From Lysobacterales bacterium (GTDB taxonomy: Bacteria; Pseudomonadota; Gammaproteobacteria; Xanthomonadales; Marinicellaceae): a DNA stretch of 64,000 nucleotides. The stretch spans positions 1 to 64,000 of the forward strand of contig JALSHI010000014.1 in NCBI GenBank assembly GCA_026982315.1. The letters are read 5' to 3'. This document shows, piece after piece, positions 40,032-47,034 of this stretch (position 1 is the first letter of the stretch; every line of letters begins with the position of its first letter). The notes under the pieces are model-generated. The model was not told the origin of the DNA. It saw only the letters and a program-made list of their open reading frames with translations, and searched no databases. Position numbers and translations under genes: made by a program.

Positions 40032-40349
40032 CTACCAGCCCAGCGTAGACAAGCGGCGCAGCCGCTGCTGAAGCCGTTCAATTTCATCCAGCAAGTCCAA
40101 CGCCAGGGCGGCACCGGCCAGATTGACGCCCAGGTCACGGCGCAGATGCACAACCGTTCGCACACGCGGCACGCACTGGCCGGTAAACACCGGCTTGGGT
40201 TCTTCGCTGACTGGTGTAATAATGCCTTCATCCACCAAACGCAGGATGTCCTCGGCGGAAAACCCGGTGGCCGCGGCCAGTTCGGCCAGGGTAAACTCGG
40301 CTTCTTCCGCAATCTGGCCGTTGATGTATTCACTAAGAGCTGTGTTCAT
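40032..40349 (-). CDS. cbpM: Chaperone modulator CbpM (MerR-like)
   Basis: A 105-residue CbpM, which binds the J-domain of CbpA and blocks its chaperone and DNA-binding activity. A MerR-like helix-turn-helix is near residues 18-50 (EFTLAELAAATGFSAEDILR) and the C-terminal half is a coiled helix (LALDLLDEIERLQQRLRRL). It follows cbpA by 12 bases, its usual partner. Confidence 0.9.
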   Translation of the reverse strand: MNTALSEYINGQIAEEAEFTLAELAAATGFSAEDILRLVDEGIITPVSEEPKPVFTGQCVPRVRTVVHLRRDLGVNLAGAALALDLLDEIERLQQRLRRLSTLGW

Positions 40350-40361
40350 ACCATTCTCCTG

Positions 40362-41324
40362 TTAGCGCAAATGCGCACGGGGGTTAAAGTCGAGTTTGTC
40401 CTTAAGCTTAAGCCACTCATCCCGGGCGTGTTCGTTATGATCGGGCATGGCGATGTTGATAACCGCGTACAAATCGCCAGGCACCTTACTGGGCAGTCCC
40501 TTGCCTTTCAGGCGCATTTTCTGCCCCGCCTTGGCATTTGGCGGTATGGACAACTTGACTTTTCCGGTGGGCGTGGGCACATCCACCTTGGCGCCCAGCG
40601 CCGCCTCCCACGGGGCCACGGGCAAATCCAGGTACAAGTCATTGTCTTCAACCTTGAAGTAGGGGTGTGGCAAAAACTTGACCTTCAGGTACAAATCCCC
40701 GGCCGGAGCACCGCCCAGTCCGGGTTTTCCCTGACCGGCCAAGCGGATATGCTGGCCTTCCTTGATGCCCTTGGGGATTTTGACGTTCAAATTAACTTCT
40801 TTAAGCGTCATGCGGCCATCGGGCAACAATTCCGGCTTGCGGTATTTAATGGTTCGGGTGGTGCCGGTAAAGCTGTCTTCTAGTGGAATCTGAATGACAT
40901 TGCTGATGTCTTCGCCTCGACGCGCATAGGTCCGCCGTTGGCCGCCGCCAAAATCAAAGCCGGCATGACCACCCCGGCCCCGGGCACCGAATATGCTTTC
41001 AAAAAAATCACTAAATCCCTCGGCGCCACCACTGGTGTAACCACCACCGGCAAAGTCAAAGCCTGACGGATCCCAATCCGGCGGCGGCGTAAATTCCTGA
41101 CCATGCTTCCAGTTCATGCCGAACTGGTCATAGGCTTTCCGTTTTTCAGGATCCTTAAGCACTTCGTAAGCTTCGCCAATTTCCTTGAATTTGGCCTCAG
41201 CGTCCGCTTCCTTGCTCACATCCGGGTGATATTTGCGCGCCAGTTTTTTATAGGCGCGCTTGATGGTTTTCTGGTCTGCGTTCTTGTCAACGCCGAGAAT
41301 TTTATAATAATCTTTATATTCCAT
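40362..41324 (-). CDS. cbpA: Curved DNA-binding J-domain protein CbpA
   Basis: A 320-residue type-II-like DnaJ co-chaperone: a J domain with the HPD tripeptide ([20 protein letters not shown]), a Gly/Phe-rich linker (about 85-135), and two beta C-terminal substrate domains (about 135-310) without the Cys-rich zinc fingers of DnaJ. It stimulates DnaK and can bind curved DNA. The operon cbpA-cbpM is conserved. Confidence 0.93.
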
Positions 41325-41443: not shown

Positions 41444-43135
41444 CTAAAAAGATTTCCGCGCCTCAAGAATGACCTGAAAGCCGCTTAGATCACTGTCGCC
41501 ACCCACAGGAAAGGCAAAATCAATATGAATCACCTTGCCATTGGCCGCTTCGGTGGGCACCAAGCGCAAGCCAAATCCGATATCTTTGACCGTTCTGTTT
41601 TCATCCGGGTCATCAGAACCCCAGGCGGTGGCCACATCAGCAAACACGGCGGCGCCAAATTGCACCAGGTGGTAAGGATACCAGTCAAAATAAAAACGTT
41701 GCTCCACGGTCAGCAAGGCATTTTTTGGGGCCGTTAAATAGCGCACCGGAAAACCACGCAAACCGTTTTCGCCCCCCAGGGTGTTCTGGCGCTCGGGGAA
41801 TAAATTATGGCCCATGCGAGTGGCTGCTTTGATATAGAAGCTGCGGTGACGGCTTTGAAACAGAAACCACTGGGCCTGCGCGCTGGCCAGCCCATCCAGC
41901 ACCACCTGATTGCCATAAAAACCGCTCACATTGGCATTGAACAATAATAGCTGATTGTCATTGGGTTGCCAGCCTTTGCTGTAGTCGGCTTGCCAGACCA
42001 GATGGCTGTCACTGGCGCCAAAAGCCACATGAGACCAACCCAGACGGGCTTGCACATGATGCCCCAGGGACACGTCTTCGATCCGGCCCATATGTTGCAA
42101 ATTGGTTTTTTCAATAAACTGATCTTGCAGGTATTCGTAACCCACCCAGGGGTAAGCAAAATGCCTGTCAGCCGGAACGCGCTGTTGGGGATAGTTTTCC
42201 GTGGCCCGGAAACGATTATCGTCATCAGAAAAGCCGATCACATAGCGCCGTGTGGCGCCGTCCTGGAAGCCATTTGAGCGCCCAAGCCAGGCTTCTGCCA
42301 ACTGCCTTTTCTGGCCAATTTCCGAAGTGATTTCCCCATTGCGGTACAGAGGGTTATCCAGCCGGTGGGAAAACAGATGCAGCCCCCAGGCACGGCGGCT
42401 GTCCAGGGAGTAAAACGGTTTTTGCCATTCAATTTCCCCGATATGTCCGTCGGAGTTATTTTGGTAAAGCAATTTGATTCGTTGTCGACTGCCTGCCAGA
42501 TTGGGGTCGATATAACGCAGAATTTTCTCTGTACGGTCGATGCCGTGACGATACTTGATTTGTAAGTTCTTGCCCAGGCCGAGGAAGTTTTCTTCTTCGA
42601 TTTCAACTGCCCAGCGGTTTTTCCCACCGCCGCGGCCAAAGGAAAAATTCGGTGTTAAAGTCCAGTTATCCCTGGTCGTCACTTGCACGGTTACCGCATC
42701 ACCGCACACGGACACCGGCGTAACAATCGCATCACGGATATAGGAAAAGCCACGCAAATGGCGCTCGGTTTCGGCCAACACCCGGGGGTCAAAGGCGTCC
42801 CCGGGCTGAAACAGCAGTTCCCGTTTAATAATTTCTTCCCGGGTTTTGATGTGAAAACGGTTGGCCAACCGATTAATGCGGTGATTCTGGTCTTTCTGAC
42901 TGGTGTCAAAAATATTCCGCACATCCAGTTTAATGCGGCCAATGCGCCACTCCGCAGAGGGGTGAGTCTGCTCTTGATGATTTAACGGCCGACACGGGGA
43001 GTCGGCGGTGGTGATGGCAGGCTCGCGGGCAAAAACCTGCTGGCATAACAGCAATCCATATACACATAGGGCTGAATTCAACCAGATGGTATTTAGGTTT
43101 TTCGGCGCCTTGTCCATTGTTTCAATGTGTTCCAT
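41444..43135 (-). CDS. Omp85/BamA-family outer-membrane protein
   Basis: A 563-residue protein: a signal-like helix (LNSALCVYGLLLCQQVFA), one or two POTRA-like repeats (about 75-160, including REEIIKRELLFQPGDAFDPRVL and SYIRDAIVTP), and a C-terminal barrel ending in the aromatic F of LEARKSF. The loop-6 signature is ENGLRGFPVRYL. Its start overlaps the HolD-like gene in an MCE operon (ATG at 43135, or 43117 after MDK). It may be the outer-membrane exit of that pathway. It is not BamA itself: it is shorter and has fewer POTRA domains. Confidence 0.8.
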   Translation of the reverse strand: MEHIETMDKAPKNLNTIWLNSALCVYGLLLCQQVFAREPAITTADSPCRPLNHQEQTHPSAEWRIGRIKLDVRNIFDTSQKDQNHRINRLANRFHIKTREEIIKRELLFQPGDAFDPRVLAETERHLRGFSYIRDAIVTPVSVCGDAVTVQVTTRDNWTLTPNFSFGRGGGKNRWAVEIEEENFLGLGKNLQIKYRHGIDRTEKILRYIDPNLAGSRQRIKLLYQNNSDGHIGEIEWQKPFYSLDSRRAWGLHLFSHRLDNPLYRNGEITSEIGQKRQLAEAWLGRSNGFQDGATRRYVIGFSDDDNRFRATENYPQQRVPADRHFAYPWVGYEYLQDQFIEKTNLQHMGRIEDVSLGHHVQARLGWSHVAFGASDSHLVWQADYSKGWQPNDNQLLLFNANVSGFYGNQVVLDGLASAQAQWFLFQSRHRSFYIKAATRMGHNLFPERQNTLGGENGLRGFPVRYLTAPKNALLTVEQRFYFDWYPYHLVQFGAAVFADVATAWGSDDPDENRTVKDIGFGLRLVPTEAANGKVIHIDFAFPVGGDSDLSGFQVILEARKSF

Positions 43136-43521
43136 ACGGGTCTTTTCAATGCAGGGTTCTTTAGCATATCATCCAAACTCGCCAAATAGATTCGTTGATT
43201 GTCTTTGTTCTCCCTGAGCGTGTCAAACTCCAATCGCCATCCGTCTGGTAGATCCACCGACACATGGGCTGTGGAAATTACTGTGATTTTACAAGCGCGC
43301 GGACTCTCACCAATGGCCTGAAGAATTTTCTCAAGCAGCTCTCTATGCGCCGATGGCAACTCGCCGCCGGGCTGCTGTATGCTGGTAGTCTCAGCGGGCG
43401 GGTTCAGATCCGGCAAGGCGTCACTTTGATGTACTGCAGCCTGCTGTGCGCTATCGCCACAACGCCGCCGCCACGGCCGCAAGCCCAGTAACGCCATAGA
43501 CTGAGGATGCAGCTTAATCAT
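43093..43521 (-). CDS. DNA polymerase III psi subunit (HolD)-like protein
   Basis: A 142-residue protein with the layout of HolD: an N-terminal MALLGLRPWRRR (compare QLGITQWSLRR in E. coli), a central LLEKILQAIGESPRACKITV, a DGWRLEF stretch and a C-terminal YLASLDDMLKNPALKRPVW. HolD links the clamp loader to SSB. The assignment is my own alignment by eye, so it is tentative. The ATG at 43521 overlaps the lipoprotein stop (ATGATTAA), and its end overlaps the Omp85 gene. An unrelated MCE accessory is the alternative. Confidence 0.5.
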   Translation of the reverse strand: MIKLHPQSMALLGLRPWRRRCGDSAQQAAVHQSDALPDLNPPAETTSIQQPGGELPSAHRELLEKILQAIGESPRACKITVISTAHVSVDLPDGWRLEFDTLRENKDNQRIYLASLDDMLKNPALKRPVWNTLKQWTRRRKT

Positions 43522-44164
43522 GTTTTTCAACGGCTTTGCCAGCGGTTTCCGCGGCAGACATGCGGGCGCGAATGGCCGCGTCCACCTGTTGCATCACGGT
43601 TTCGCTCATGGCGCTGACCGCCGCCACAAAGGCGCTGATGCTGTTTTCGGGCAAGTCCCGCTGTTGCCGGAAGGTTTGCAGGTAACGCTGTTGTTTGCGC
43701 GCATCCAGCCATTCCACCCGCACACCAAGCGTGGCGGTTTGTTTGTTTTTTTCCAGCGCCAACAAGGTGACCAGTACGGTATCATGGCGAGGATGGGGTG
43801 GTTTGATATCCAGCACCTGCGGCCATAAACCAGACTGCGAAGCCCAGTCCAGAAACAGGTTCTGCCAGATGACGCGCGGCGAGTCCAGCCAAAAGTGATG
43901 GTGCATTTGCACCCGGGCACCATCCCCGGCCACCGCCAGCATCGGCCGGGAACCAACAACACCCAATGCCTGGGCCCGGGGAATGTAAACCGGCACTGAA
44001 CGCTGTGGCACCGGCGCGTTTTCGACCCATTCCAATCTGACTTGCAGGGGATAATACTGGCGATCGACCACCATACCCCGCTTATGGCAACCACTCAACC
44101 CGATGGTAGTGAATAAAACCAGCCACCAGGCCCATACCGGTTTTGCAAAGAATCGTGTTTTCAT
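43514..44164 (-). CDS. ABC-type transport auxiliary lipoprotein (PqiC-like)
   Basis: A 216-residue lipoprotein: the lipobox LSGC gives Cys26 (LFTTIGLSGCHKRG). The rest matches the ABC-transport auxiliary component seen with MCE systems (PqiC type): YYPLQVRLEWVE-like strand, RVEWLDARKQQRYL, and a C-terminal helix with SAMSETVMQQVDAAIRAR. It probably stands in the outer membrane and takes lipid from, or docks, the MlaD-like MCE ring. It overlaps the mlaD-like stop by ATGA. Confidence 0.8.
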   Translation of the reverse strand: MKTRFFAKPVWAWWLVLFTTIGLSGCHKRGMVVDRQYYPLQVRLEWVENAPVPQRSVPVYIPRAQALGVVGSRPMLAVAGDGARVQMHHHFWLDSPRVIWQNLFLDWASQSGLWPQVLDIKPPHPRHDTVLVTLLALEKNKQTATLGVRVEWLDARKQQRYLQTFRQQRDLPENSISAFVAAVSAMSETVMQQVDAAIRARMSAAETAGKAVEKHD

Positions 44165-45078
44165 CGTTCTTCATCCGCTGGTTGTCCTTTGGGCGCGAAT
44201 ATCAGCCGCGAGGGATTACGCCGCAGTTCATCAGTCAATTCATTCAGGTTCATGCTGGCGCTTTCCAGTTCAGTGGTAATGGTATCCAGCCGCACGGAAA
44301 CCAATCCCACGGACTCCACCAATTGAGTCATAACCGCATCTATCCGGGGATCATTTTCCGCCACCAGTTCATGCGCCTGCGCTATCAAGGTGTTGACCTT
44401 TTCTCCGGCCTGTTTCAGGGATTCGCTGAATTGCTGGCTATTGACCAGCAAGGCGTTGATGCGCTCGGCATTCTCCTTGTTAAGCATTTCGCCGGTGGCG
44501 TCAATCAGCTGATTGAGCTGACCGGTGGCCTTGTTGACATTTTCCAGCAGCTGGGGAATCTGGACATTCAGCGTTCGGGTCAGACTGTCTGTGCGCTGGT
44601 ACAGCAGGTCTATTAAAGGCACAATTTTTTCCTGGTTCAGCTTTTCAAAGTCCCGCGCCAAGTCAGTCATCACGGCCATCAGGTTTGTGGCTTCCTCACC
44701 CGGAATTTCTGAGCCTGGCGGCAAAAAACGGGGGCTTTTTCCAGCCTTGATATTGACCGATACATCGCCAAGCAAGCCGGTCGCCTGAACCACGGCTTTT
44801 GAGCCCTCAGGAATTTTCCAACCGGCCTTGATCTTGTAGTTGACCTTGAAGCGCACCGGCGCCAGACTTTCCGGCGTTATCGAGTCAATCTGACCAATGC
44901 GATAGCCCTCAAAATAAACCGGTTTGCCAAAGTCCAAACCGGTGACATTCCTGAAGCGACTGTAATATGTGTCACTGGCCGCCGGGGAACCGGTCAGGTA
45001 CACCATAATGGCCAGCGTCATGGCGATCACCACCAGGCTAAACAGGCCAACAATAAAATAGGTTTTGCTTGATTTCAT
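44161..45078 (-). CDS. MlaD-family MCE domain protein
   Basis: A 305-residue MCE protein. One N-terminal membrane helix (FIVGLFSLVVIAMTLAIMVYLTG) is followed by the MCE domain (about 35-125: GLDFGKPVYFEGYRIGQIDSI and VVQATGLLGDVSVNIKAG). A long alpha-helical tail (about 145-285) could form the needle-like tube seen in MCE proteins of this length, longer than E. coli MlaD. It carries lipid in the periplasm. It lies 15 bases after the ATPase gene. Confidence 0.92.
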   Translation of the reverse strand: MKSSKTYFIVGLFSLVVIAMTLAIMVYLTGSPAASDTYYSRFRNVTGLDFGKPVYFEGYRIGQIDSITPESLAPVRFKVNYKIKAGWKIPEGSKAVVQATGLLGDVSVNIKAGKSPRFLPPGSEIPGEEATNLMAVMTDLARDFEKLNQEKIVPLIDLLYQRTDSLTRTLNVQIPQLLENVNKATGQLNQLIDATGEMLNKENAERINALLVNSQQFSESLKQAGEKVNTLIAQAHELVAENDPRIDAVMTQLVESVGLVSVRLDTITTELESASMNLNELTDELRRNPSRLIFAPKGQPADEER

Positions 45079-45093
45079 GCCCTTCTCCTGGGG

Positions 45094-45930
45094 TTATTTT
45101 TTCTTGTCCAGCGCCTGGGTCAACCGTTGCAGATATTTTTGCGGATCTACCGCCGAGTGCAATGGCTGCCGTCGAATCATGGCCTGGATAATGGGGTTGT
45201 CGGCATTTTTGACCTCATCGGGGGTGCCTGTCATTAGAATCCGGCCTTCATGCAGAAAGGTGATTTTGTCTGCAATGGTGAAGGCGCTATCCAGATCGTG
45301 GGTAACCACAATCATGGTGATACCCATGGCCTTGCGCAGTTGCAATATCAGTTCGTCCAGCTCCGCAGCCAAAATCGGATCCAGTCCTGCAGAGGGCTCG
45401 TCAAACAGGAGCAACAAGGGATCACGCACAATGGCCCGGGCCAGCGCCGCCCGCTTGACCATGCCACCGGATAACTGGGATGGGTAATAGTCCTCGTAGC
45501 CACCCAGGTTGACCACTTCCAGCTTCATGCGAACAATAATGCGGATGGTTTTTTCATCCAGATCGGTAAATTCTCGCAATGGCAAGGCCACATTTTCGCC
45601 CACCGTCATATCCGACAACAAAGCGCCATTCTGGAATGACACCCCGAGCTTCCACAGGACGTCGAGCTTTTCCAGAAATGAAATCCGGTGAATGTCCCGC
45701 CCCATCACCAACACGCGCCCGGCGGTGGGCTGGTACAGGCCGACAATATGCCACAGCAGTGTGCTTTTCCCAGAGCCAGAGCCGCCCATAATCACCCGAA
45801 TTTCTCCGGCTTCCACGCGCAGATCGACACCTTTGAGAATCACCTTGTCCCCATACTGGGTCACCAGGTTTTCCACCACCACGATATCGCGGCGGGGTTG
45901 CGTGTCTTTCTGTGGCCGGTTCTGCTTCAT
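45094..45930 (-). CDS. MlaF-family ABC transporter ATPase
   Basis: A 278-residue ABC ATPase. Walker A is GGSGSGKST (about 50-58), signature QLSGGMVKRAALARAI, Walker B LLLLFDEPSAGLDPI, and H-loop VVTHDLDS. The Mla-type C-terminal end (GTPDEVKNADNPIIQAMI) is present, consistent with a dimerising tail. It powers lipid movement through the permease encoded by the next gene, whose frame overlaps by ATGA. Confidence 0.95.
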   Translation of the reverse strand: MKQNRPQKDTQPRRDIVVVENLVTQYGDKVILKGVDLRVEAGEIRVIMGGSGSGKSTLLWHIVGLYQPTAGRVLVMGRDIHRISFLEKLDVLWKLGVSFQNGALLSDMTVGENVALPLREFTDLDEKTIRIIVRMKLEVVNLGGYEDYYPSQLSGGMVKRAALARAIVRDPLLLLFDEPSAGLDPILAAELDELILQLRKAMGITMIVVTHDLDSAFTIADKITFLHEGRILMTGTPDEVKNADNPIIQAMIRRQPLHSAVDPQKYLQRLTQALDKKK

Positions 45931-46715
45931 TGGGTCAGGAAATAGCTGAAAATCATGTCTGTAATCACGATCAAGGCAATGGAGATGACCACCGTTTGTG
46001 TGGTAGCCCGGCCGACTCCCTCGGCACCACCTTTGACTTGCAGCCCCATGGTCGCCCCCACCAGGGCAATGATGACGGCAAACACCACACTTTTGATAAG
46101 CCCCTGCATGATATCTCCAAGCACCAGCACATCGAGACTGGTCTTCATGTAAGCAGCCAAGGTCATGTCCATCTTGCCGATACTAAACAGGGCGCCTCCC
46201 AAAATACCACTGATATCCGCCAGAATAATCAACATGGGCAAAGCCAGCACCATGGCAATCAAAGGCGGCAGCACCAAAAACCGCACCGGCACGATGCCCA
46301 TCACTTTGAGGGCGTCCACTTCCTGGTTCACCACTTGTGAACCGATTTTGGCCGCCAGGGCGGCGCCACTGCGGCCTGCCACGATAATCCCGGTAATCAG
46401 GGGCGAAAACTCTCGGGTGACTGATTTGGCGATGGCCAGCAAGACCTGGGACTCCGCCCCGAAGGTGCTCAGGGCATACAACAACTGGATGGCCAGCATC
46501 ATACCCACCACCACAGAAAGGCCATTGACAATCAGCGTGGCGTTCACTCCGATTTTGCGAAACTCCTCGGCAATTTGCCACCCATGAACCCGCTGTTTGT
46601 ATTTCGGCCCCATGACCAGCCAATAGAGACATTCGAACAACAGGCTGATACCAAAGCCGAAGCGCGCGATGGCTTCTGCCACACGCGCGCCCAGGGACTC
46701 AATCAGTGCGCGCAT
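45927..46715 (-). CDS. MlaE-family ABC transporter permease
   Basis: A 262-residue membrane protein of the MlaE/YrbE family with about five helices and an N-terminal amphipathic one. The family signatures are ATLIVNGLSVVVGMMLAIQLLY, ARSGAALAAKIGSQVVNQEVDAL-type (split) and VFAVIIALVGATMGLQVKGGAEGVGRATTQTVV. The start at 46715 (MRALIES) overlaps the STAS gene stop; ATG at 46721 is the alternative. It is the inner-membrane channel of the MCE system. Confidence 0.92.
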   Translation of the reverse strand: MRALIESLGARVAEAIARFGFGISLLFECLYWLVMGPKYKQRVHGWQIAEEFRKIGVNATLIVNGLSVVVGMMLAIQLLYALSTFGAESQVLLAIAKSVTREFSPLITGIIVAGRSGAALAAKIGSQVVNQEVDALKVMGIVPVRFLVLPPLIAMVLALPMLIILADISGILGGALFSIGKMDMTLAAYMKTSLDVLVLGDIMQGLIKSVVFAVIIALVGATMGLQVKGGAEGVGRATTQTVVISIALIVITDMIFSYFLTQ

Positions 46716-47034
46716 GGGCATCCAGAATGGTAAATACCTTGTCCAGCCGCGCCAGCTCCAGAATCGAGCGCACCCGCGGACTGGGGGTTCGCAGGGCAAA
46801 ATGCTTGTTGTTTTCCTGGGCGAACTGGAGCCCTTCCACCAAAGCCGCTATGCCGGAGGAGTCGATATAATCCACATCACTGAAATCCACCTGGACGTCA
46901 TCCACCATGTTCAGCGCATTGAGAATGTGTTTGCGCAAAGCCGGCGAGTTCGACAAATCAATTTCGCCATGGGGCTGCAAGATAATGCAATTATCCTGCC
47001 GCTGGAAAGAAATCAAATCTTGTTCGCTGTGCAT
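46699..47034 (-). CDS. STAS-domain protein (MlaB-like)
   Basis: A 111-residue STAS protein with the anti-anti-sigma fold: DNCIILQPHGEIDLSNSPALRKHIL and the loop DVDYIDSSGIAALVEGLQ with the phosphorylatable Ser in DSSG. In Mla systems MlaB binds MlaF and is needed for ATPase assembly; here it is first in the operon, not last. It overlaps the mlaE-like start. It could also act as a phospho-regulated switch. No promoter was identified in the 74-base gap upstream. Confidence 0.85.
   Translation of the reverse strand: MHSEQDLISFQRQDNCIILQPHGEIDLSNSPALRKHILNALNMVDDVQVDFSDVDYIDSSGIAALVEGLQFAQENNKHFALRTPSPRVRSILELARLDKVFTILDAHARTD

Follow-up and report, generated by a model that had tools for sequence, protein, structure and literature searches.

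A probable Mpc-type MCE lipid transporter followed by holD and a probably independent Omp85 gene in a Lysobacterales bacterium

Does an Omp85-family barrel encoded at the end of an MCE gene run belong to the lipid transporter encoded upstream of it? The question is raised by positions 41444-47034 of the window (the whole analysed stretch of 64,000 nucleotides), which comes from a bacterium of the Lysobacterales, the order of Xanthomonas. The initial annotation saw in this region one self-contained trans-envelope conduit, in which a lipoprotein and a barrel take over from the missing MlaA and MlaC. We favour another division of the same genes, with a probability of about 0.88: a five-gene Mpc-type MCE lipid transporter, followed by two passenger genes, holD and an independent orphan Omp85 gene.

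Seven genes on the minus strand

Seven head-to-tail ORFs on the minus strand occupy 41444-47034, and the seven same-strand genes originally proposed stand, with their coordinates, on ORFs and domain matches alike. Four domains have outright Pfam and NCBIfam support: those of the STAS-domain protein (MlaB-like; 46699-47034; Pfam STAS 1.7e-18, with NCBIfam mlaB_1 at 8.7e-7, under its cut-off), the MlaE-family permease (45927-46721; Pfam MlaE 1.2e-63), whose start we set at 46721 from 264-aa relatives, the MlaF-like ABC ATPase (45094-45930; Pfam ABC_tran 2.6e-28, with MlaF as best NCBIfam equivalog at 1.7e-57, under its cut-off), and the MCE (MlaD-like) protein (44161-45078; Pfam MlaD 1.4e-12). 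They are followed by a PqiC-like lipoprotein of the ABC_trans_aux type (43514-44164), which is the last of the transporter genes; by holD, for the psi subunit of DNA polymerase III (43093-43521); and by an Omp85-superfamily protein with one POTRA and a barrel-sized C-terminus (41444-43117).

Neighbouring genes overlap at five of the six junctions: by 23 nt at STAS/MlaE, 4 nt at MlaE/MlaF, 4 nt at MlaD/lipoprotein, 8 nt at lipoprotein/HolD and, given a barrel start at 43117, 25 nt at HolD/barrel; the sole non-overlapping junction is a 15-nt gap between MlaF and MlaD. The earlier statement that almost every junction overlaps is thereby upheld. For the barrel we prefer the start at 43117 to the alternative at 43135, because the 25-nt overlap with holD then equals that of a sister species (locus L066).

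The MlaD-like protein has 305 aa, with an N-terminal TM helix, a single MCE domain (residues 36-113) and a helical tail, in which an alignment of relatives reveals a conserved NPSRLIF motif near the C-terminus. In a PDB search the tail aligned to helical regions of mycobacterial Mce1 and 13hr chains, and Pfam returned no barrel-family match for the protein. The lipoprotein carries a lipobox, LSGC, as read by eye; taken alone it matches ABC_trans_aux at 0.0052, under the Pfam cut-off, while all nine of its nine relatives match that family. A profile built from the relatives finds PqiC (8q2c, 9.7e-9), 13hr (6.2e-6) and XCC0632 (2iqi, 1.6e-5) in the PDB. Entry 13hr combines the two kinds of protein, an MCE protein and an ABC_trans_aux lipoprotein, and both were matched here. 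These alignments and structural matches support the long helical MCE tail and the PqiC-like lipoprotein of the initial annotation.

A probable transporter without MlaC and MlaA

The reported absence of MlaC and MlaA holds for the genome as a whole: neither was found in the window's genome (99% complete), and both were detected in an E. coli control. The same genome contains one MCE domain match in total, that of the MlaD-like protein of this operon. Among the relatives, MCE is present in all 61, and MlaC had no match in any of the 33 genomes of the window's family (f1); it was detected in at least one genome in six of the eleven other sampled families of the order. The classical Mla shuttle thus seems to have been lost family-wide in f1.

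Two familiar arrangements can be set aside. An E. coli-type Mla system is ruled out, as the MlaC shuttle and the MlaA lipoprotein are both absent from the genome; a Pqi system (PqiABC) is ruled out, as PqiB has three MCE domains, against one MCE domain match genome-wide. What the locus does possess are the features of an Mpc-type system: MlaE and MlaF in the operon, a helical-tailed protein with one MCE domain, a terminal PqiC-like lipoprotein, and no MlaC.

The Mpc (Mla-Pqi chimeric) system was recently described in Brucella abortus as MpcEFDA, whose single operon likewise encodes MlaE, MlaF, a PqiC-like lipoprotein and an MlaD that carries long C-terminal helices (PMC12436622). In Brucella, as here, MlaC is lacking and the lipoprotein is not MlaA-like; MpcD, of 331 aa, and the 305-aa protein of this locus both combine one MCE domain with a helical C-terminal extension. 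Brucella differs in that STAS is fused to the permease, whereas here it is a separate, overlapping gene, which we regard as a variation and not as a defining trait; moreover, Brucella is an alphaproteobacterium, and the locus described here is followed by holD and the barrel gene, whereas no barrel features in the descriptions of known relatives (PMC12436622). PqiC assembles as an octameric ring, and in Xanthomonas the gene for XCC0632 stands together with mlaFE and an MCE gene in one operon (PMC10897342). This X. campestris operon (PDB 2iqi), compared by its published description, likewise has homologues of mlaFE, a gene for an MCE protein and one for a PqiC-like lipoprotein, and no barrel gene is mentioned for it (PMC10897342). 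Sphingobium LinKLMN, studied for hexachlorocyclohexane use, has by its description the same four-part make-up (PMC4289293). In the Mla system of Veillonella parvula, MlaA and MlaC are likewise absent beside MlaEFD, and an elongated MlaD is believed to span the envelope (PMC10665443); that MlaD, however, ends in its own barrel domain, whereas the one described here apparently ends in a helical tail and is accompanied by a lipoprotein. The five-gene architecture is already known (PMC12436622; XCC0632, PMC10897342), and the suggestion of a less-described system did not survive the comparison.

While the gene content can be read directly from the DNA, for function, assembly and bridging we argue from homologues. 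On this analogy, STAS, MlaE and MlaF would form the inner-membrane ABC transporter that serves as the engine; MlaD would form an MCE ring, with its helical tail crossing the periplasm to an outer-membrane ring of PqiC-like lipoproteins; and lipid would pass between the membranes by this MlaD-lipoprotein bridge, without MlaC and MlaA. An inner-to-outer-membrane lipid bridge capped by a PqiC-type lipoprotein ring is the most likely form of the system as judged from its homologues. Of the self-contained conduit first suggested, the MCE system free of MlaA and MlaC fits such a bridge, but the Omp85 part finds no support in the neighbourhood survey presented below.

holD, a probable old neighbour

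The protein encoded between the lipoprotein and the barrel scores weakly as a single sequence: in the window's species alone it matches the Pfam psi family at 0.014 to 0.015, under the cut-off, and its match to psi chains in the PDB is collinear and not significant (E 0.18). Pfam DNA_III_psi was matched, however, by six of ten relatives (best 8.1e-7), and the relatives conserve an N-terminal LGLxxW and a C-terminal W, motifs which we take to be those of psi. The classical neighbour of holD is rimI, and in families f5 and f7 the gene order is MlaD-PqiC-holD-rimI (L085, L088); the best match to rimI in the genome of the window lies on a different contig. The identification as HolD rests on the Pfam matches of the six relatives together with this rimI synteny.

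A profile of the protein, which was built from MCE-linked copies and could therefore be escaped by unlinked HolD, matches 37 of the 61 relatives; no more than 1.7 kb separates the match from MlaD in 34 of these 37, and HolD and MlaD are on separate contigs in the remaining three. Within the window's family, STAS-MlaE-MlaF-MlaD-PqiC-HolD makes up the MCE locus in genera g1, g3 and g4, with no HolD or lipoprotein match near the MCE locus of genus g2 (G003); the genes downstream of HolD vary from genus to genus, and the barrel stands outside this recurring block of six genes. Such strict linkage within the family, along with the weak family score in the window's species, would also suit a protein that is an accessory subunit of the MCE system and not HolD at all. 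We give this reading very little credence: its gene has rimI as a neighbour in two families, it conserves the LGLxxW and C-terminal W motifs, and no signal peptide or TM segment was seen in it by eye. We read holD instead as a replication gene, encoding psi of the clamp loader, and as an old neighbour, originally together with rimI, that lies outside the transporter. In several of the order's families it would be an ancestral companion of the MCE operon, and its position directly after the operon there may reflect an old shared transcription unit.

The Omp85 gene beside the operon

As a single sequence, the last protein of the run matches Pfam Omp85 at 7.2e-5, just under the cut-off; a profile built from its relatives matches the POTRA-domain protein 9ccg at 4.8e-10 in the PDB, and BamA as well. 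An AlphaFold model made with three close sequences (mean pLDDT 32.9) gave no usable barrel: one POTRA is readable at residues about 64-154, and the remainder has a pLDDT of about 20-35. The proposed Omp85 barrel with POTRA domains is compatible with the Omp85 and POTRA profile matches; one POTRA was seen and not several. Directly downstream of the barrel gene, on the same strand, lies a cbpA-cbpM pair (DnaJ-like co-chaperone and modulator; window 40032-41324), which is retained in the sister species as well.

By the initial annotation, a high co-occurrence of the Omp85 gene with the MCE genes would support its proposal. A single-sequence search of the 61 relatives gave strong barrel matches in 15 genomes, three of them from the window's genus; by profile search, the barrel is present in 14 of the 150 genomes searched from the order and in 12 of the 232 from the class. 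The barrel stands behind holD in all three species of the window's genus g1 (G000, G001, G002) and nowhere else examined; in G001 and G002 the locus is broken across contigs, with the gene order still clear. A scan of genome contigs matched the two sister species alone, and in L066, where the junction can be read, the 25-nt overlap of holD and barrel is identical at 75% protein identity. Barrel homologues of other genera are 35-44% identical, and those of the 61-genome set lie on contigs separate from the MCE genes; in G036 and G047 (f5), which have an MCE-holD locus, that locus and the barrel are on separate contigs. About 25 barrel loci of other genera in the order and class were fetched with flanks of at most about 9 kb, shorter at contig ends, and none of these flanks has an MCE gene. 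Matches to MlaF on three such flanks (L098, L099, L107) are weak (about 1e-19) and have no MlaE or MlaD beside them, and we take them to be other ABC ATPases. Two homologues (G009:C147 in L074 and G063:C108 in L092) contain one in-frame stop each, and are either decaying genes or products of assembly errors.

The barrel could nonetheless be an added component of the MCE system of this genus, serving as its exit pore in the outer membrane and touching the lipoprotein ring: it is encoded on the same strand with a 25-nt overlap with holD, the order is kept across three species, and MlaA is absent. We consider this very improbable, since holD intervenes between the barrel and the transporter genes, no other genus examined shows a link between the barrel and MCE, most members of the family carry the MCE operon but lack the barrel, and the known relatives were described barrel-free (PMC12436622). 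Equally slight is the chance that an orphan Omp85 was recruited to the operon in one genus as the dedicated pore of a lipoprotein-capped bridge. A search of the literature, judged from titles and abstracts, apparently turned up no paper describing a link between Omp85 and MCE. The barrel as a part of the transporter was rejected on the neighbourhood survey, in which it proved to be a general orphan, found mostly without MCE genes; the proposal that it replaces MlaA and MlaC is likewise unsupported, and its recurrence within MCE operons is limited to genus g1. Because the barrel adjoins the transporter in this genus only, an accident of gene order is the most likely explanation of its position. 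There is a small chance of a recent functional link limited to the genus, as the order of holD and barrel is kept in its three species and the 25-nt overlap in L066.

A different role for the barrel is suggested by its surroundings elsewhere. Four of the approximately 25 loci, from three families, have a gene for a sulfatase-superfamily envelope-lipid enzyme adjoining the barrel or separated from it by one gene; it is EptA-like in L078 (5054-6724) and L095 (1330-3761), and LtaS-like, which is our reading of the Pfam label Sulfatase, in L093 (9985-11958) and L100 (6227-8152). The gene overlaps the barrel in L078, L093 and L100 and is one gene off in L095, and in one locus a PAP2 phosphatase lies between barrel and enzyme. 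It is possible, though we hold it only tentatively, that the barrel works with such headgroup enzymes or in outer-membrane biogenesis, its position in the window being accidental; the association is confined to four loci, and no such gene adjoins the barrel in this genus. This proposal would add to our main reading, in which the transporter and the barrel are separate, and does not contradict it. On that main reading, the Omp85 gene is a patchy orphan that would have arrived behind holD in no genus but this one, where it may share the transcript and probably works independently of the transporter.

In conclusion, our analysis adds a small-genome gammaproteobacterial genus, with no other MCE system, to the known range of the Mpc-type MCE transporter, and removes a tempting false lead, i.e. 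an MCE operon with its own Omp85. It also leaves two minor leads: the conserved adjacency of MCE and holD, and a small family of orphan Omp85 proteins encoded near lipid headgroup transferases.
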